From Candidatus Neomicrothrix parvicella RN1 (lineage in GTDB: Bacteria; Actinomycetota; Acidimicrobiia; Acidimicrobiales; VFJN01), in the NCBI GenBank assembly GCA_945898515.1, contig CAMDIH010000006.1, positions 1 through 52,950 of the forward strand: 52,950 nt of DNA, written 5' to 3'. A model generated the notes under the pieces. The model saw only the letters and a list, made by a program, of their open reading frames with translations, ran no database searches and was not told where the DNA came from. Below, piece after piece: positions 33,411 through 49,033 of this stretch. Position 1 is the first letter of the stretch. Each line of letters opens with the position of its first letter. The position numbers and the translations under genes were made by a program.

Positions 33411-34094
33411 ATGTCCGAGCCAACTCCGCTGCGAAGGGTGGAAGACCACAGCGAAGAGTTGCGGGCCGCCGACGGACGGGTGCCCGGCCTTCGCGGACGC
33501 GCCACGCGGCAACGCCTACTGGCCTGCACCCTCGAGATGCTCACCAGTACCTCCTACCGCGACGTGAAGGTCATCGACATCGCCCGCGAAGCCGGCACCT
33601 CACCGGCCACCTTCTACCAATACTTTCCCGACGTAGAGGCGGCCACGTTGGTGTTGGCCGAGGAGATGGCGCAGCAAGGCCAACACCTTCGCCTGATCAT
33701 CACGGAGGGATCATGGCTGGAGGGTGAGGCGATGGCCACGGCGCTGGAATTGGTAGACGCGTTCTTGGTGTTTTGGGACAGCCATCGCTCCGTATTGCGA
33801 GTGGTGGACCTCGCCACCGACGAAGGGGATGGTCGGTTCCAGAAGATCCGGGTGCGCCTACTCAACGACATCACCACTGCGCTAGCCGAGGTGGTGCGGC
33901 AGGCTCAGAAGGCCGGGCGCATTCCCAAGACGATCGACCCGATGGCGGCGGCGGGGGTCTTGGTGGCCATGCTCGCCCACACCGCCGCCCACCAGTACGG
34001 CTTCGAGTTTTGGGGAATCCGTACGGCGAAGTTGCGCCAGTCGATGGCCCGCCAGGTGTCGTGGGGCGTAACCGGGATCATCCCGCCCGACTGA
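33411..34094 (+). CDS. TetR-family transcriptional regulator
   Basis: A 227-residue repressor. A roughly 25-residue polar leader precedes the domain; the HTH is VKVIDIAREAGTSPATFYQYFPDVEAA (helix-turn-helix with FYQYF recognition helix). The C-terminal all-helical half (LVDAFLVFWDSHRSVLRVVDLATDEG) should bind an acyl-CoA or other ligand, as in neighbours of FadD genes. ATG 33411 lies 9 bases after the ligase stop. Its TGA overlaps the ATG of the LLM oxidoreductase. It may bind one of the palindromes nearby, but its recognition helix does not resemble KstR as I remember it. Confidence 0.88.
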   Translation: MSEPTPLRRVEDHSEELRAADGRVPGLRGRATRQRLLACTLEMLTSTSYRDVKVIDIAREAGTSPATFYQYFPDVEAATLVLAEEMAQQGQHLRLIITEGSWLEGEAMATALELVDAFLVFWDSHRSVLRVVDLATDEGDGRFQKIRVRLLNDITTALAEVVRQAQKAGRIPKTIDPMAAAGVLVAMLAHTAAHQYGFEFWGIRTAKLRQSMARQVSWGVTGIIPPD

Positions 34095-34981
34095 TGGAAG
34101 CCTCCGCGGGTGGGAAGGCGATAGCGCTGGGCCTTCTGCCGCCCTATCGCCTCGGGGTGGCCAGTGACCCGGCCTGGATGGGGGTGTTTGCGCGGCACGC
34201 CGATGAGAGCGGATTCGAGTCGCTGCTGGCCGTGGAGCATGTGGTGGTGCCGGTGGGTCACTCCAGTCGCTACCCCTACAGCGACACCGGGCGCATGCCC
34301 TTACCCGACGATTGCGATCTGCCCGATCCGCTTGACCTGCTGGCCTGGTTGGCTGCTCGCACCGAGCGGATTCGGCTGGGTACGGGCATTCTGGTGCTGC
34401 CCGAACACCACCCCCTCGCGTTGGCGAAACGCTGCGCCACGATTGATCGCCTCTCGGGGGGGCGGTTCTTTCTGGGTGTTGGGGTGGGCTGGAATCGCGA
34501 GGAGGTGGCCGCTTTGGGCATCGACCCAAACGAGCGCGGCACGCGCACCGATGAAGCCATCGATGCCCTCCGGGTGATCTGGCGAGACGACACCCCTGAG
34601 TTCGCTGGGCAGCATTTCAACTTCGCGCCGGTGCACAGCCACCCCAAGCCCGCCCAGGCGCGGATTCCGATTTTGGTGGGGGGCCATGCCCCCGCCGCTG
34701 CTCGGCGCGCCGGTGAGCGCGGCGACGGGTTCTTCCCCCTCGGCCTGGCTGGCGACCTCCTCGATGAGCGCTGGGCCCAGGTGCAGCAGGCCGCCATCGC
34801 AGTCGGCCGCAACCCGGCGTCGGTGTCGCTTACCCTCGGCGGCGTGTTGGGGGATGACACCGCCATCGCGCGGGCGGCGGAGCGGGGTGCCGAACGGGTC
34901 GTGCTCAGCCTCCGCACCGATGATCTGAACGCGGCCCGTCACGCCATGGATGCCGCCGTCGCCTACCGCGACACCCTCTAG
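34094..34981 (+). CDS. LLM-class F420-dependent oxidoreductase
   Basis: A 295-residue luciferase-like monooxygenase-fold enzyme of the F420 group. Typical parts are LGLLPPYRLG near the N-terminus, RIRLGTGILVLPEHHPLALAKRCATIDRLSGGR (read in parts: GTGILVLP, LAKRCATID, LSGGRFFLGVGVGWNREE) and ILVGGHAPAAARRAGERGDGFFPLG. It transfers hydride to or from an organic substrate using coenzyme F420. ATG overlaps the TetR stop (TGATG). The 3' end shares CTAG with the convergent transporter gene. Substrate is unknown. Confidence 0.88.
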   Translation: MEASAGGKAIALGLLPPYRLGVASDPAWMGVFARHADESGFESLLAVEHVVVPVGHSSRYPYSDTGRMPLPDDCDLPDPLDLLAWLAARTERIRLGTGILVLPEHHPLALAKRCATIDRLSGGRFFLGVGVGWNREEVAALGIDPNERGTRTDEAIDALRVIWRDDTPEFAGQHFNFAPVHSHPKPAQARIPILVGGHAPAAARRAGERGDGFFPLGLAGDLLDERWAQVQQAAIAVGRNPASVSLTLGGVLGDDTAIARAAERGAERVVLSLRTDDLNAARHAMDAAVAYRDTL

Positions 34982-35823
34982 ATTCCTCCGCCGGTAGCCA
35001 TGAGCGCGGTGGCGGCCAGTGCTAGGACAATCCCCACCCGTTGAATCGCCATGAACCGTTCGCCGAGCACGACTCGCGCCAGCACGATGGTGCTCACCGG
35101 ATAGAGCGATGACAGCACCGCCACCACGCTCAGGAGGCCCTGGCGCAGGGCGAGCAGATAGCACGCGTTGGCGACAAGGTCGAGGCCTCCGGCGGAGGCG
35201 GTGAGCGGCCGCGACGGACCGCGCCGTATCTCGGGATCGATCCGGCCGCTCAGCGCCAGCAGCACCATCACCGAAACAGACGCCATGCGGGCCGCCAAGA
35301 GGGGCCAGAGCCCGGCGTTGTCGCCGGTAGCGGCCAGCGCCACAAAGAACAGGCCAAAGCCAACGCCCGCCCCGATCGCCCCGCTGACCCCGCGGCGGAG
35401 CGAGGGGGCCAGGGTGCGGTCGCCGCCGGCACAGACCGCCACGATGGCCACCAGGGCGAGGGTCATTCCCACCCCCACCGCCGGTCCGGGCCGGTCGCCG
35501 GTGACCAATCCGACCGACGCGGGGATGGCGGCGGCGATCAGGGCCGCCACCGGGGCCACCACGATCATGGGCCCGATCGCCAAGGCCTGGTAGAGCAGAC
35601 CCACGCCCGCGGCACCGGCGAGGCCGCCGAGGGCGCCGAGCACGAGGTCACTGGTGGTGGCGGTGCCGCTCATGAAGGGCATCACCGCCACAATGAGAAG
35701 CAGGCCCACGCCGTGGGACCACAGCAATACGGCGGCCGCCGAGGCACCTTTGGTGGCCATGCCACCGCAGAAGTCGCCCACGCCGTACACGGCGGCGGAC
35801 AGGAGTGAGAGCAGGACCGCCAT
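34978..35823 (-). CDS. EamA/DMT-family transporter
   Basis: A 281-residue integral membrane protein with about ten hydrophobic helices in two EamA repeats (residues about 1-135 and 145-281). The first repeat contains LLSAAVYGVGDFCGGMATKG, the second GLDLVANACYLLALRQGLLS and a final LSSLYPVSTIVLARVVLGERF, the characteristic EamA end. It probably exports or imports a small metabolite across the inner membrane. Start ATG 35823 with GAGAGAAGG upstream. Single gene facing the second LLM gene; the shared 90-base gap contains two overlapping palindromes. Confidence 0.85.
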   Translation of the reverse strand: MAVLLSLLSAAVYGVGDFCGGMATKGASAAAVLLWSHGVGLLLIVAVMPFMSGTATTSDLVLGALGGLAGAAGVGLLYQALAIGPMIVVAPVAALIAAAIPASVGLVTGDRPGPAVGVGMTLALVAIVAVCAGGDRTLAPSLRRGVSGAIGAGVGFGLFFVALAATGDNAGLWPLLAARMASVSVMVLLALSGRIDPEIRRGPSRPLTASAGGLDLVANACYLLALRQGLLSVVAVLSSLYPVSTIVLARVVLGERFMAIQRVGIVLALAATALMATGGGI

Positions 35824-35862: not shown

Positions 35863-35887
35863 GGTCTGGTAGACCACGTTCTAGTTT
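35863..35887 (+). promoter_or_regulatory. KstR-like operator with -10 TAGTTT for the LLM/SDR/EthD operon
   Basis: 35868-35885 (GGTAGACCACGTTCTAGT) matches the perfect site at 46198-46215 at 15 of 18 positions when that site is read on the opposite strand, and fits TnnAACnnGTTnnA with one mismatch (AAC to ACC). Its last bases begin TAGTTT (35882-35887), a -10 about 26 bases upstream of the GTG start. A second palindrome, GGTCT-GGT-AGACC (35863-35875), overlaps it. No -35 consensus is seen, so an activator may also be involved. Confidence 0.55.
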
Positions 35888-41285: not shown

Positions 41286-42500
41286 TTAGGAGGTGATGCC
41301 GTAGCGCTCGAGACCAAACGCCCGGATGGCGTTACCGCGCACGAACTTCCAGGTTTCTTCCTCGGAGAGGCCGGCCTGGGCACAGATGTTCTCGGCCACC
41401 TTTTTGGAGTGCGGGAAGGTGCTGTCGGCATGGGGGTAGTCGGTCTCGAAGCAGATTTGGTCCATGCCGATGATGTTGCGGTTCTGGAGGCCGATCTCGT
41501 CGTCGAAGACGCACCCGTAGATGCGGTGGTGGATGTAGCTCGATGGCTTGTTCGGGAGACTGGTCCCAAAGGAGTTGTCGCCTCGCTCGGCCCAGAGTTT
41601 GTCGGCCCGCTCAATGACGTAGGGCATCCAACCAACCTGACCCTCCGAGTAGGCGATCACAAGGGTGGGGAAGCGCTCCAGCGTGCCCGAAAAGATGTAG
41701 TCGAGCATCGAGCCCATGGCGTTGGAGAAGGTAAGGGTGGAACTCACTATGAAGGGCGCATCGGGCGAGGTAGCCGGCATCCGCGACGATGAGCCAATGT
41801 GCATGCACACCACGGTGCCGGTGTCCTGGCAGGCCTGAAAGAACGGGTCCCAGTAACGGCCCTTGTCGTGCACCGACGGCAGGCCTAGAGGATACGGGTT
41901 CTCCGAGAACGTCACGGCGAAGCAACCGCGAAGCGCATTGCGCCGCACTTCAGCCGCCGCCAGGTGGGGGTCCCACAGCGGGATCATGCCGAGCGGGATG
42001 AGGCGCCCCTGGCCATCCCCGGCGCACCACTCATCGATCATCCAGTCGTTGTAGGCCTGCACACAGAGCAGGGCGAGATCTTTGTCCTCGCGTTCGTAAA
42101 AGGTCTGGCCGCAGAACCGCGGGAGGGTGTTGGGGAAGCAGATGGACGCCTCAACGTGGTTCGCCGTCATGTCGATGAGCCGATCCTTTTGGATCCAGCA
42201 GCCGGGACGGAGCTGGTCGTAGGTAACCGGGGTGACGTCGATGTCTTCAAAATCCAAGGCGGCACTGACTTTCGGGAACGGATAGATCAGGTCGTCGTAG
42301 ATCCACCAATCGCACGGTTCGCCACCCTTGACCCCCTTTTCGTAGGAGAAGACCCCGCCTTCGAAGTTGAAAATGGCGGTGTCGCGCTCCACGCGGGGGG
42401 CACGGTCGCGGTAGCTCAGGGGGAGGCGGTCGGTCCAGAGGGTGGGTGGCTCCACCACGTGATCGTCGACCGAGATGATGAGGGGGAGGTTTGCAGCCAT
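41286..42500 (-). CDS. Amidohydrolase family 2 (COG2159), paralogue B
   Basis: A 404-residue TIM-barrel hydrolase, close duplicate of the protein at 29886. It carries IISVDDHVVEP, ANHVEASICFPNTLPRFCGQ, VVCMHIGSSSRMPATS, AYSEGQVGWMPY and ICFETDYPHADSTFP. ATG 42500 has a clean -10 TATGAT exactly six bases upstream, so its mRNA is probably leaderless. A KstR-like operator lies over the -35 region. It is followed by the unknown protein and the flavoprotein on the same strand. Substrate unknown; sequence divergence from paralogue A is greatest in the 60-residue region after the metal motif. Confidence 0.88.
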   Translation of the reverse strand: MAANLPLIISVDDHVVEPPTLWTDRLPLSYRDRAPRVERDTAIFNFEGGVFSYEKGVKGGEPCDWWIYDDLIYPFPKVSAALDFEDIDVTPVTYDQLRPGCWIQKDRLIDMTANHVEASICFPNTLPRFCGQTFYEREDKDLALLCVQAYNDWMIDEWCAGDGQGRLIPLGMIPLWDPHLAAAEVRRNALRGCFAVTFSENPYPLGLPSVHDKGRYWDPFFQACQDTGTVVCMHIGSSSRMPATSPDAPFIVSSTLTFSNAMGSMLDYIFSGTLERFPTLVIAYSEGQVGWMPYVIERADKLWAERGDNSFGTSLPNKPSSYIHHRIYGCVFDDEIGLQNRNIIGMDQICFETDYPHADSTFPHSKKVAENICAQAGLSEEETWKFVRGNAIRAFGLERYGITS

Positions 42501-42506
42501 CTTCTC

Positions 42507-42539
42507 ATCATAGGACCGGCGACTTGAACTGGTTCTAGT
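42507..42539 (-). promoter_or_regulatory. Leaderless promoter with KstR-like operator
   Basis: On the minus strand, -10 TATGAT (42507-42512) ends six bases before the ATG at 42500. ACTTGAACTGGTTCTAGT (42522-42539, plus-strand reading) fits TnnAACnnGTTnnA exactly and has arms with one mismatch. It overlaps the last codons of the LEH-like gene and would sit across the -35, suiting repression. Confidence 0.6.
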
Positions 42540-44661: not shown

Positions 44662-44691
44662 CTGACACCTCCGTGGGGCGCGTTCTAGGGT
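44662..44691 (+). promoter_or_regulatory. Leaderless promoter CTGACA-N18-TAGGGT with a GTTCTAG half-site
   Basis: -35 CTGACA (44662-44667), 18-base spacer, -10 TAGGGT (44686-44691), six bases, ATG 44698. CGTTCTAG (44681-44688) equals the right half of the KstR-like palindrome found upstream of the next gene, while the left half is degraded (GGGGC for AGAAC). Confidence 0.6.
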
Positions 44692-44697
44692 TGGACT

Positions 44698-46158
44698 ATG
44701 ACCACCGCAAAGTTCAGGCTGCTCATCAATGGTGAACGGGTGGCCGGCGAGGGCGGGTCCTACGACATCATCAACCCCGCCACCGAGACGGTGGTGGGGC
44801 AGGCTCCCGAGGCTTCCCTGGCCCAGGTCACGGCCGCCGCCGAGGCTGCCGCGACGGCCTTTCCGGCGTGGAGCCGCACGAAGCCCGAGGAACGGTCGGC
44901 CTTACTGAACAAGGCGGCCGACCTGTTGCGCGAGCGGATGGATGAGCTGATTCCCTTGGTCCAGGCGGAAACGGGGGCTACCCAACGGGTGGCTTCCACC
45001 ATGCAGGTGCCTACCTGTGTCGAACGTTTTCGCCGTTACGCCCGGGGTGCGATGGAGCCCACCACCATGGCGCTGCCGCCCGGTGAGATGCCGGCCACTG
45101 CGCTGGCGGCCGGTGGGCTTATGAGCGCGATTGCGGTGCGCCAACCGGTGGGGGTGGTGGCGTGCATCACCCCGTACAACTTCCCGATCGTGAACATGGC
45201 CGGCAAGATCGGCCCGGCCTTGGCGATGGGCAATACCGTGATTGTGAAACCGGCGCCGCAGGATCCGCTGGCGGTCACGGTGTTTGGTGAGATCCTGGAT
45301 GCGGCAGGCTTCCCGCCCGGGGTGGTGAATGTTGTTACGGGTTCGGGACCGGAAGCCGGGCAGGCGCTAGTGGCCTCGGACCGCGTCGACATGGTCAGTT
45401 TCACCGGTTCCACCCCGGTGGGTCAGGCGATCGGTGAAGTGGCGGGTCGGGGGATGAAGCGCCTTCTGCTTGAACTGGGGGGCAAGGGGGCAGGCATCGT
45501 GTTCGACGACGCCGACCTCAAGACCACCATCGGCACGATTGCTAGCGTGTGGGCCTTCCACAGTGGTCAGATCTGTACGGCCCCGACGCGTGTCATTGCG
45601 CAGCGCGGGGTGTACGACCAGGTGGTGGCGGGCCTAGCCGCCGCCGCCGGTCGCCTCAAGGTGGGCGATCCGCTGGCCCGCGACACCGTGGTGGGCCCGT
45701 TGATCTCGGCGGTGCAGCGAGACCGGGTGGAGGCGCTTATTCAGACCGGCGTGGAGCAGGGCGGCGAACTCATCGCGGGTGGGTTGCGCCCCGATTGCGA
45801 AACCGGTTTCTACGTGGCGCCCACCCTTATTGCGGGGTGTCGGCCGACCAATGCCGCCGTGTTGCAGGAGTTCTTCGGCCCGGTGGTGGTGGTGGTCCCC
45901 TTCGACGATGAGGACGAAGCGGTGGCGATTGCCAACGGCACCGAGTTCGGCTTGTACGACTATGTGTTCTCCGCCGACACCACCCGTGCCTTGCGGGTGG
46001 CCCAGCAACTCCGCACCGGCAACGTGGGGCTGAACACGGCTCAGCGGAATCATGAGGCGCCCTTTGGCGGCTTCAAGATGAGCGGTGTGGGTCGCGATGG
46101 CGGCAGTTTTGGGCTGCAGGCCTACAGCGAACTGCAGTCCATCGTCTGGCCCGGCTAG
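44698..46158 (+). CDS. NAD(P)-dependent aldehyde dehydrogenase
   Basis: A 486-residue ALDH-superfamily enzyme converting an aldehyde to the acid. Motifs: CITPYNFPIVN (substrate Asn), SFTGSTPVGQAIGE (cofactor), LLELGGKGAGIVFDDAD (Glu base), HSGQICTAPTRV (nucleophile Cys), and the end phrase EAPFGGFKMSGVGRDGG. Leaderless start at ATG 44698. Forms, with the amidohydrolase and alcohol dehydrogenase downstream, a line of genes that could release, oxidise and activate a side chain. Substrate undetermined. Confidence 0.92.
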   Translation: MTTAKFRLLINGERVAGEGGSYDIINPATETVVGQAPEASLAQVTAAAEAAATAFPAWSRTKPEERSALLNKAADLLRERMDELIPLVQAETGATQRVASTMQVPTCVERFRRYARGAMEPTTMALPPGEMPATALAAGGLMSAIAVRQPVGVVACITPYNFPIVNMAGKIGPALAMGNTVIVKPAPQDPLAVTVFGEILDAAGFPPGVVNVVTGSGPEAGQALVASDRVDMVSFTGSTPVGQAIGEVAGRGMKRLLLELGGKGAGIVFDDADLKTTIGTIASVWAFHSGQICTAPTRVIAQRGVYDQVVAGLAAAAGRLKVGDPLARDTVVGPLISAVQRDRVEALIQTGVEQGGELIAGGLRPDCETGFYVAPTLIAGCRPTNAAVLQEFFGPVVVVVPFDDEDEAVAIANGTEFGLYDYVFSADTTRALRVAQQLRTGNVGLNTAQRNHEAPFGGFKMSGVGRDGGSFGLQAYSELQSIVWPG

Positions 46159-46187: not shown

Positions 46188-46217
46188 CTGACGCGCTACT
46201 AGAACGTGTTCTAGTCT
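46188..46217 (+). promoter_or_regulatory. Leaderless promoter overlapping a perfect KstR-like operator
   Basis: -35 CTGACG (46188-46193), 18-base spacer, -10 TAGTCT (46212-46217), six bases, ATG 46224. The operator ACTAGAACGTGTTCTAGT (46198-46215) has perfect 8-bp arms around GT and fits TnnAACnnGTTnnA. It covers the spacer and the start of the -10, the classical position for a repressor. Confidence 0.7.
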
Positions 46218-46223
46218 GCTGCT

Positions 46224-47957
46224 ATGGCCTCCTTCGATCTGGTGATCACCAACGGGACCGTGGTGGATGGAACGGGCCTCCCTCGTCGGCGCGCCGATGT
46301 GGGCATCAAAGACGGGCGCATCGCCGCCGTCGGGTTCATTGATGCCACCGAGGGCGATCGGGTGATCGATGCTGCCGGCCGGGTGGTGGCCCCAGGCATC
46401 GTCGATCCTCACACGCACTACGACCCGCAACTCACCTTCGAGCCCTACGGTACGTCCAGTTGCTACCACGGCGTCACCACGGTGGTAGCGGGAAACTGCG
46501 GCTTTTCGGTGGCCCCCCTCAAGCCCGGGGATGGGCCCTGGCTGATCCAGTTATTTGCCCGGGTTGAGGGCATGGATGCCAGTGCGCTCGAGGGCATTCC
46601 GGTAGACGCCTTCGAGAGTTTCCCTGAGTTTCTCGAGGTGATTCGCGGGAAGATCGGCATCAACGCGGCGTTCTACATCGGCCATTGTGCTCTGCGTCGC
46701 TATGTCATGGGGGAGGCTGCTCAGGAGCGTGCCGCCACCGCCGAGGAGATCGAGCGAATGGCTCAGATCGTGCGGGAGGCGATGGCGGCGGGGGCGGCCG
46801 GATTCAGTTCCACGCACTCACCCACCCACGTCGACTCGGCTGACCGCCCCGTGCCGTCCCGGCTCTCCAGTCTCGATGAGTTGCGCGCCTTGGTGGCGGC
46901 CACGGGGCGATCGGGGAGCGGCTCGATCGCCTATCTTCCCGGCTCGGCGGTGGGGGGCATTACCCCCGACGATGAGGAACTGCTCATCGAGCTGTCGTTG
47001 TTGTCGCGGATGCCGGTGATCATTCAGGGGCTCGGGGCGCGCTCCAAGGTGGATGCGCCGACGGCCGGATGGGACAACGCCAAGCGCTTCGTCGACGAAG
47101 CCACCAGTCGCGGGGCGGCGGTCTACTCAATGGCGATGTCGAAGCCGTTCAACCGAACCTTCGACGTGGCTACCGGCACGAAACTCTACGAAGGTGCCCT
47201 GGCGCTCAATCGCCTCTTTACCGAGGCCACCACCGTGGCCGAGCGCTTGGCCCTCATGGCCGAACCGGCCTTTCGGGAGGCGGCACGGGATTCGGTAGAC
47301 GATCCGAATCGTGATGCGGCCTTGGGCCCCACGTTGCCGCCGCCGGGATGGGCCATGCTTCAGGTGAACAAGGTAACGACAACGGAAAACAAACACCTGC
47401 TCGGCCGTTCCCTGGTGGATATCGCCGTCGAGCGGGGCGTGCATCCCACCGATGCGTTCCTCGACATCGCTGCTTCGGAGAACCTGGCGGTGGAGTTCGT
47501 TTGGAAGACCGAGACACCGGAGTGGATCGAGGGCACCAAGATGGCGCAGGACGACCCGCACATGATCGTGGGTACCTCCGACGCCGGGGCCCACTTGGAT
47601 CGTGACGATGGTGCCGAGGCCCACAGTTGGTTCCTCCAGTACTGGGTGCGCGAGTGGGCTGGGTTCACCCTTGAGGAGGGAGTGCGCCAGATCACCGCGA
47701 TCCCTGCCGCGCTGTGTGGCCTGAATGATCGCGGCCTATTGCTGGCCGGCTACGCCGCCGACATCATGATTTTTGACCCCGCTACGGTGGGTCCCGATCA
47801 GAAAGTACTCGCCCATGACTTCCCGAACGGTGCCGCTCGCTGGACATCAAAACCTCGAGGGGTGCACGCCACCATCGTCAACGGCGTGCCCATCGTGATC
47901 GACGGTGAGTTGCAACGCGATGCTGGTCTGCCGGGTCATGTCTTGAGCCCCACGTGA
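46224..47957 (+). CDS. D-aminoacylase/N-acyl-D-amino-acid deacylase-like amidohydrolase
   Basis: A 577-residue amidohydrolase-3 protein. N-terminal beta-sandwich (LVITNGTVVDGTG), metal motif IVDPHTHYDPQL, the Cys in VVAGNCGFS (bridging or metal ligand region in D-aminoacylases), GFSSTHSPTH, and the C-terminal metal Asp in VGTSDAGAHLDRDDG. It hydrolyses an N-acyl or cyclic amide bond; in these gene contexts the substrate need not be a D-amino acid. ATG 46224 is leaderless behind the KstR-like operator. It overlaps the alcohol dehydrogenase by GTGA. Confidence 0.85.
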   Translation: MASFDLVITNGTVVDGTGLPRRRADVGIKDGRIAAVGFIDATEGDRVIDAAGRVVAPGIVDPHTHYDPQLTFEPYGTSSCYHGVTTVVAGNCGFSVAPLKPGDGPWLIQLFARVEGMDASALEGIPVDAFESFPEFLEVIRGKIGINAAFYIGHCALRRYVMGEAAQERAATAEEIERMAQIVREAMAAGAAGFSSTHSPTHVDSADRPVPSRLSSLDELRALVAATGRSGSGSIAYLPGSAVGGITPDDEELLIELSLLSRMPVIIQGLGARSKVDAPTAGWDNAKRFVDEATSRGAAVYSMAMSKPFNRTFDVATGTKLYEGALALNRLFTEATTVAERLALMAEPAFREAARDSVDDPNRDAALGPTLPPPGWAMLQVNKVTTTENKHLLGRSLVDIAVERGVHPTDAFLDIAASENLAVEFVWKTETPEWIEGTKMAQDDPHMIVGTSDAGAHLDRDDGAEAHSWFLQYWVREWAGFTLEEGVRQITAIPAALCGLNDRGLLLAGYAADIMIFDPATVGPDQKVLAHDFPNGAARWTSKPRGVHATIVNGVPIVIDGELQRDAGLPGHVLSPT

Positions 47958-49033
47958 GGGGGCTCGTGTGGACCGGCGAATTGGAGGTACGCGACGACGT
48001 CGAGGTGCGCGGCCCGCGTCCTCACGAGGTCGTGGTGCGGATCGTCAACGCCGGCCTGTGTCACTCCGATGTGTCGGTCTTGAACGGCACCATTCCTTTC
48101 CCCACTCCGGTGGTGTTAGGGCATGAGGGCGCCGGGATAGTGGAGGAGATCGGCTCAGCGGTGCGCAAGGTGCAGATAGGCGACCATGTTGTGCTCACCA
48201 CGCTCGGCAGTTGTGGTCTCTGCGACGCGTGCGACCGAGGACAACCCACCCATTGCCGCGACACCATGGGCAAGTTGAGTCGTCCCTTCACCGTGGGCGG
48301 GGAAAAGGCATTTCAGTTTGCCAACGCCGGCGTGTTCACCGAGCGCACCGTGGTGGCTGAGAGCCAAGCCGTGGTGATTCCCAAGGAGATGCCCCTTACC
48401 GCGGCGTGTCTCATCGGCTGTGCAGTGGTCACCGGGGCGGGGGCGGTCATCAATCGAGCCAAGGTGCAACCAGGGCAGACGGTGGTGGTCATCGGGGCCG
48501 GGGGTATCGGACAGTCGGTGATTCAGGCCGCTCGCATCAGCGCGGCGGGGCGCATCGTGGTGATCGATGCCAACCCCGGCAAGGAGGCCGTAGCGCGACG
48601 GTTCGGCGCGACGGACTTCCTCGATGGTTCCACCTTTACCGGCGACGGCGAGTTGGTGCAGGCCGTCAAGGATCTGGGTTTGCCGAACGGGGTGGACCAC
48701 GCCTTCGAGTGCGTGGGCCATCCGGCGCTTATCCGCCAGGCGATCGATCTGCTGGATTGGGGCGGTCAGTGCATCCTGCTGGGTGTGCCCAAACTCGGCA
48801 CGGAGGCCAGTTTTGTGGTGAATGCCCTCTACAACGACAAGTCGATCATGGGATGCCGCTACGGAAGCACCCGTCCTCATCACGACATTCCCATGTTCGT
48901 GAACTTTTACCTCGATGGCCGACTCCAACTCGATGAGATGGTGAGCCAGGTGTACGACCTCGCCGACATCCAGGAGGCGCTGAAGGATATGAAGGCGGGA
49001 ACCCTCAACCGTGGGGTTCTTTCGCTTTCCTAG
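47954..49033 (+). CDS. Zinc-dependent alcohol dehydrogenase (MDR superfamily)
   Basis: A 359-residue medium-chain dehydrogenase. Catalytic zinc: Cys in NAGLCHSDVS, His in LGHEGAGIVE and Cys in LIGCAVVTGAGA; structural zinc: C-x2-C-x2-C-x7-C in CGLCDACDRGQPTHC. The NAD fold is VVVIGAGGIGQSVIQAA. It interconverts an alcohol and aldehyde or ketone. GTG 47954 overlaps the preceding amidohydrolase stop, so it is in the same operon, and with the ALDH gene upstream could make an alcohol-to-acid route. Confidence 0.92.
   Translation: MRGLVWTGELEVRDDVEVRGPRPHEVVVRIVNAGLCHSDVSVLNGTIPFPTPVVLGHEGAGIVEEIGSAVRKVQIGDHVVLTTLGSCGLCDACDRGQPTHCRDTMGKLSRPFTVGGEKAFQFANAGVFTERTVVAESQAVVIPKEMPLTAACLIGCAVVTGAGAVINRAKVQPGQTVVVIGAGGIGQSVIQAARISAAGRIVVIDANPGKEAVARRFGATDFLDGSTFTGDGELVQAVKDLGLPNGVDHAFECVGHPALIRQAIDLLDWGGQCILLGVPKLGTEASFVVNALYNDKSIMGCRYGSTRPHHDIPMFVNFYLDGRLQLDEMVSQVYDLADIQEALKDMKAGTLNRGVLSLS

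Follow-up and report, generated by a model that had tools for sequence, protein, structure and literature searches.

In Mycobacterium tuberculosis, KstR binds its own promoter at the motif TAGAAC(N2)GTTCTA, which there partly overlaps the -10 element (PMC1995591). Published KstR sites include those of Rv3503c/Rv3504, Rv3520c/Rv3521, Rv3525c/Rv3526, and Rv3573c/Rv3574 (Kendall 2007, Table 3; PMC1995591), as well as one between Rv0551c and Rv0552 (PMC1995591). In the KstR2 regulon, too, steroid catabolism is controlled by a TetR repressor that binds an inverted palindrome, of 14 bp (PMC3068626). Our literature search returned no description of KstR in Acidimicrobiia.

Here we analyzed a window of 52,950 nucleotides from Candidatus Neomicrothrix parvicella RN1, together with the rest of its genome (G000; 2.3 Mb, ~90% complete), for which our statements rest on pattern and family searches. 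The window contains the palindrome ACTAGAACGTGTTCTAGT, whose arms, ACTAGAAC and GTTCTAGT, are perfect reverse complements separated by a GT spacer. An earlier note on this DNA had described a perfect KstR-type palindrome with 8-bp arms here, and we found its position, letters, and arms to be exact. The palindrome fits the KstR operator form TnnAACnnGTTnnA, and the best form of that operator, the mycobacterial core TAGAAC-N2-GTTCTA, is present inside it as an exact match, while the KstR2 motif, AnCAAGnnCTTGnT, is unlike this site (PMC3068626). The proposed fit to KstR was also borne out by a scoring matrix built from published KstR sites, with which the palindrome obtained the top score of the window (31.8), followed by 16.9, 16.7, and 8.5.

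The operator ends 8 bp before the ATG of an amidohydrolase gene at 46224, and by inspection the -10-like TAGTCT overlaps its 3' arm, which gives a predicted position for the transcription start. Several other operators in the genome likewise have TAGTCT after their 3' arm. The palindrome had been placed exactly over the promoter spacer and the -10, and while the spacer is indeed covered, only the first four bases of the -10 are overlapped. Since the ATG follows the site so closely and we saw no Shine-Dalgarno-like run ahead of it on sequence inspection, a leaderless mRNA from this promoter is plausible. The window has two further operator-like sites with one mismatch each, and a site at 44674 is listed as a possible relic because one half-site is kept and its score lies below background.

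Table 1. Predicted operators and associated genes in the window and elsewhere in the genome (window positions unless a contig is given).
Feature	Position	Strand	Basis or remark
Putative -35, CTGACG, 18 bp from -10	46188..46193	+	Sequence inspection; predicted
KstR-type operator, perfect palindrome, 8-bp arms and GT spacer	46198..46215	.	Sequence, shuffles, genome counts, footprint in G001, G003, and G051
Putative -10, TAGTCT; first four bases are the operator end	46212..46217	+	Sequence inspection; predicted start at or near ATG
Amidohydrolase family 3 protein, 577 aa, first gene of predicted repressed operon	46224..47957	+	Nearest solved structure D-aminoacylase
Zinc alcohol dehydrogenase, 359 aa, second operon gene	47954..49033	+	4-bp overlap with amidohydrolase
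Aldehyde dehydrogenase	44698..46158	+	Full operator of its own at the G005 and G051 homologues
Possible decayed operator TGGGGCGCGTTCTA, right half intact	44674..44687	.	Same distance to ATG as main site; score -2.2, weak indication
Second operator, one mismatch in 14-bp core, before amidohydrolase family 2 gene	42522..42539	.	Pattern search and matrix
Amidohydrolase family 2 protein	41286..42500	-	76-80% identical homologues in G004, G005, G006, and G051 under perfect operators
Third operator-like site, one core mismatch	35868..35885	.	Pattern search and matrix
EamA-type transporter gene, downstream of third site	34978..35823	-	
Perfect site, amidohydrolase-2 gene	C16		
Perfect site, divergent pair: Rv3520c-family F420 oxidoreductase / amidohydrolase-2 gene, then KshA-like Rieske protein	C21		
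Perfect site, FadE34-like dehydrogenase	C27		
Perfect site, ribD	C28		
Perfect site, FadE34-like dehydrogenase and kstR-like gene	C62		
Perfect site, luciferase-like oxidoreductase	C71		
One-mismatch site, divergent ligase/dehydrogenase pair, then OB-fold and lipid-transfer genes	C62		
One-mismatch site, FadE26-type dehydrogenase ACAD_C87	C87		

The earlier note had suggested searching the genome for a KstR homologue and for further copies of the palindrome, and both were found. The genome encodes one KstR-like TetR protein (C62:7897-8484), which carries TetR_N and TetR_C_20 (PF17925) domains, the latter found in this protein only among the ~18 TetR domains of the genome. Among solved TetR proteins it is closest to KstR, with M. 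tuberculosis KstR as its best PDB match (E 4e-28), and the two share 29 of 48 identical residues in the HTH and 33 of 128 in the C-terminal domain. In a tree of 32 rows, including 16 other TetR domains of the same genome, the regulator grouped with KstR of M. tuberculosis, N. farcinica, and Tsukamurella and with Acidimicrobiia homologues in a clade (support 97/96) that leaves out all 16 of these domains; within the clade, the regulator and M. tuberculosis KstR fall in different subclades. Its score of 153 bits misses the cut-off of the NCBIfam KstR equivalog model NF033703 (280 bits), and we therefore call it KstR-like rather than KstR. The gene lies between two of the operators, as the second gene of a co-directional unit that begins with a FadE34-like acyl-CoA dehydrogenase (ACAD_C62) and has a perfect operator ahead of it at C62:6631. 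This order of operator, dehydrogenase, and kstR-like gene is kept in three other genomes (G001, G004, and G008), and the operator fits autoregulation of the regulator, with repression itself being predicted.

The seven perfect copies of the palindrome include several that stand before homologues of known KstR targets. FadE26 (Rv3504), KshA (Rv3526), and FadE34 (Rv3573c) are classical KstR-controlled genes. The Rieske protein under the C21 operator is KshA-like (best PDB match KshA, E 3e-37), and the oxidoreductase that shares this operator belongs to the Rv3520c family (470 bits, cut-off 335). ACAD_C87 matches 4x28, which we take to be the FadE26/FadE27 complex, at E 3e-140. Amidohydrolases recur among the targets, and Rv0552, which adjoins a published KstR site, is presumably also an amidohydrolase, which makes it uncertain that a D-aminoacylase-like gene falls outside the classical regulon, as the earlier note had it. 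Like the mycobacterial KstR regulon (Rv3574/MSMEG_6042), this one has the same operator core, a -10 overlap (putative here), and many dispersed sites (PMC1995591), and in both the regulator gene adjoins a FadE34-like dehydrogenase while FadE26-type, KshA-like, and Rv3520c-family genes stand under operators. On the other hand, it differs in its host class, Acidimicrobiia, in a regulator that is only ~40% identical and below the equivalog cut-off, in the presence of amidohydrolase/aldehyde dehydrogenase modules and ribD among the targets, and in that no Mce4, HsaC, or KstD was found.

Conservation of the amidohydrolase operator extends beyond the species. The two congeners that carry the gene (G001 and G003; 95% identity) both have it. 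In G051, a genome of another family with an 82% identical amidohydrolase, all 18 bp and their 8-bp spacing from the ATG persist although the flanks have diverged. Amidohydrolase homologues at 50-65% identity had no operator directly upstream; their partner aldehyde dehydrogenase or amidohydrolase-2 genes carry KstR-type sites at seven Acidimicrobiia loci (L196, L207, L208, L211, L213, L214, and L259), and a KstR-like gene adjoins the homologue loci in L206, L219, and G048. Thus, the whole module is tied to the regulator more widely than the single operator is. Within the same genus, G002 has 17 Mce4-type domain matches and one perfect operator only, and we found neither a KshA-like gene nor, at the threshold used, a homologue of the window amidohydrolase, which would point to strong regulon turnover within the genus.

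Palindromes arise randomly and most distant homologues of the amidohydrolase lack the site, so we considered whether the palindrome is a chance occurrence without function, a reading that we regard as extremely improbable. Dinucleotide-shuffled windows gave no match to it, and the only other matches in the window with three or fewer mismatches are the sites at 42522 and 35868. The genome holds seven perfect TAGAACNNGTTCTA sites against none for the reversed control and four more with one mismatch, two of these in the window, for a regulon of about eleven sites, whereas 37 relatives lacking a KstR-like gene yielded a single perfect site in 115.7 Mb, a rate at which ~0.02 sites would be expected here; retention of the site amid diverged flanks in G051 also argues strongly against chance. 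Matches with two mismatches are mostly noise (22 forward sites versus 81 for the reversed control). It is improbable, too, that the palindrome is bound by another TetR protein of the genome, even though there are ~17 further TetR HTH domains and the C71 target has a TetR gene next to it. None but the C62 protein falls with KstR in the tree, its gene is placed between two operators, and site and KstR-like gene co-occur across the order: in a sample of 60 genomes, a perfect site was present in 18 of the 23 with a KstR-like gene and in 1 of the 37 without (Fisher p 6e-10, which serves as a guide only because the genomes counted are related).

A more serious alternative concerns what the repressor senses. 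The regulon could be real and yet no longer respond to steroids, with the repressor answering some other bulky ligand, an acid or acyl-CoA of isoprenoid, branched fatty acid, or bile-acid-like type, and the operon serving that pathway; we treat this as a distinct possibility, though one held at less than even odds. The regulator shows little conservation in its C-terminal half, which binds the ligand, and several classical genes were not found. With Pfam and NCBIfam models, which were the only ones used for HsaC and KstD, the best HsaC match in G000 reached 49.6 bits and none exceeded 50 bits in G000 or its congeners, while the same search gave 240-305 bits in G005, G008, and G011. The only strong FAD_binding_2 match in G000, sought as KstD, reads as L-aspartate oxidase, and the Mce4 domain PF11887 had no match in G000, G001, G003, G004, G005, or G006, while the same search finds Mce domains in other relatives. 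Against this alternative, the FadE26-type, KshA-like, and ChsH2-type OB-fold/lipid-transfer genes are all kept, the first two under operators, and the genome is only ~90% complete. The target list favours steroid side-chain chemistry. Since HsaC, Mce4, and KstD were not found in a genome of this completeness, we describe the inducer as probably a bulky acyl-CoA, steroid-like or other. The earlier note's link to steroid catabolism therefore stands in part: homologues of known targets lie under the operators, but our searches gave no convincing KstD, HsaC, or Mce4, and the regulator falls below the KstR cut-off.

We favour the reading, with a probability of about 0.87, that the palindrome is the operator of the KstR-like TetR repressor encoded on C62 and part of its regulon of about eleven sites, where the repressor would block the promoter and be released by an acyl-CoA. 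The genome counts, the regulator, its co-occurrence with the site, the target homologues, and conservation in G051 agree on this point, and therefore the earlier proposal of KstR-type control over the amidohydrolase/alcohol dehydrogenase operon holds as a regulatory claim, supported by the regulator, the sites, and an operator kept in two congeners and a distant family. The operator, regulator, co-occurrence, conservation, and common target genes are all read from sequence, and from them we infer that the site is bound and the operon repressed, as well as the leaderless start and the nature of the inducer. In this model, the promoter of a leaderless mRNA would be occupied by a repressor dimer, and the operon would not be transcribed until a bulky acyl-CoA intermediate frees the DNA, in the way that mycobacterial KstR is released by steroid-acyl-CoA. 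KstR itself responds in this manner to 3-oxo-cholest-4-en-26-oic acid or its CoA ester. The same repressor would also govern acyl-CoA dehydrogenases, a KshA-like oxygenase, luciferase-like oxidoreductases, further amidohydrolases, its own gene, and riboflavin synthesis.

The riboflavin target is an unexpected member of the regulon, and our literature search found no paper linking KstR with riboflavin synthesis. On C28 (7402-7571 of L039, which is C28:15000-29428), both an FMN riboswitch (RF00050, 109.5 bits) and ribD lie downstream of the operator. Each of the six genomes examined in this family, which span three genera (G000, G001, G003, G004, G005, and G006), has a perfect operator with the top matrix score ahead of ribD, and not one of 25 further ribD loci from the order has it. 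In G004, G005, and G006, the palindrome reads ATTAGAAC-N2-GTTCTAAT, the outer bases having changed in concert in the two arms, a pattern that selection on a dimer site would produce. The FMN riboswitch was recognised at ribD in only two of the six family genomes, G000 and G003, where operator and ribD are ~222 nt apart, versus 60 nt and no recognised riboswitch in G001 (L143/L292), which may reflect an apparent loss or gain of the riboswitch between close species or an assembly effect. RibD makes a precursor common to flavins and F420. Since many members of the regulon are flavin enzymes or probable F420 enzymes, it is a reasonable inference that cofactor supply is coupled to the pathway. We therefore entertain, at slightly short of even odds, the broader idea that a KstR-like repressor has been rewired to a non-canonical, steroid-like side-chain pathway that includes amidohydrolase/aldehyde dehydrogenase modules but lacks the classical ring-cleavage genes, and has gained control of ribD (riboflavin, possibly F420), which would tie cofactor supply to flavin- and F420-rich catabolism.

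The regulatory reading, a KstR-like regulon of distinctive membership in Acidimicrobiia, is well supported, and it carries the KstR operator code beyond the well-studied Mycobacteriales into a mostly uncultured class. With this code, regulons, and through them gene functions, become readable from metagenome bins, and unassigned amidohydrolase, luciferase-like, and aldehyde dehydrogenase genes gain a testable pathway context. Direct transcriptional coupling of riboflavin synthesis to a lipid/steroid repressor, as proposed here, has no precedent in the literature we searched.

A Tsukamurella steroid plasmid annotated with kstR encodes proteins 41-56% identical to the FadE26-type, Rv3520c-type, OB-fold, and lipid-transfer proteins of this genome. 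It also carries operator-like sites, one of which adjoins the OB-fold gene; no gene in the Tsukamurella stretches that we read was named KstD or HsaC. The cholate-induced side-chain cluster of Caenibius tardaugens contains CoA ligase and acyl-CoA dehydrogenase genes and, next to a TetR gene, an amidohydrolase gene with ~21-fold induction by cholate (PMC12882949), whose product is possibly of the same family as the window protein. Homologues of the window amidohydrolase (~48-57% identity) occur in sphingomonad steroid degraders, including a Novosphingobium sp. Chol11 bin and Croceicoccus estronivorus, and we saw no KstR operator at these loci. We regard this parallel as a lead only.

Several other genes were also noted. 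On contig C61, which has no perfect operator, a two-domain glyoxalase-fold protein (L269) beside a fumarylacetoacetate-hydrolase-like gene and an SDR gene possibly marks a different ring-cleavage route. Wax ester/triacylglycerol synthase genes occur near the C62 operators (L035 3831-5453), near an operator in G001 (C80, L142), and in the KstR region of G008 (L172). In G006 (L149) and G004 (L153), an MFS transporter similar to the OATP family is divergent from an amidohydrolase-2 gene across a common operator, making it a candidate uptake or export system for steroid-like acids. Lastly, the window encodes a TetR protein with a TetR_C_38 domain (33411-34091) after a CoA ligase gene, and its homologues in other Acidimicrobiia adjoin a KstR-like gene or an amidohydrolase/aldehyde dehydrogenase module (L206, L219, and G048), so this protein may co-regulate the pathway.
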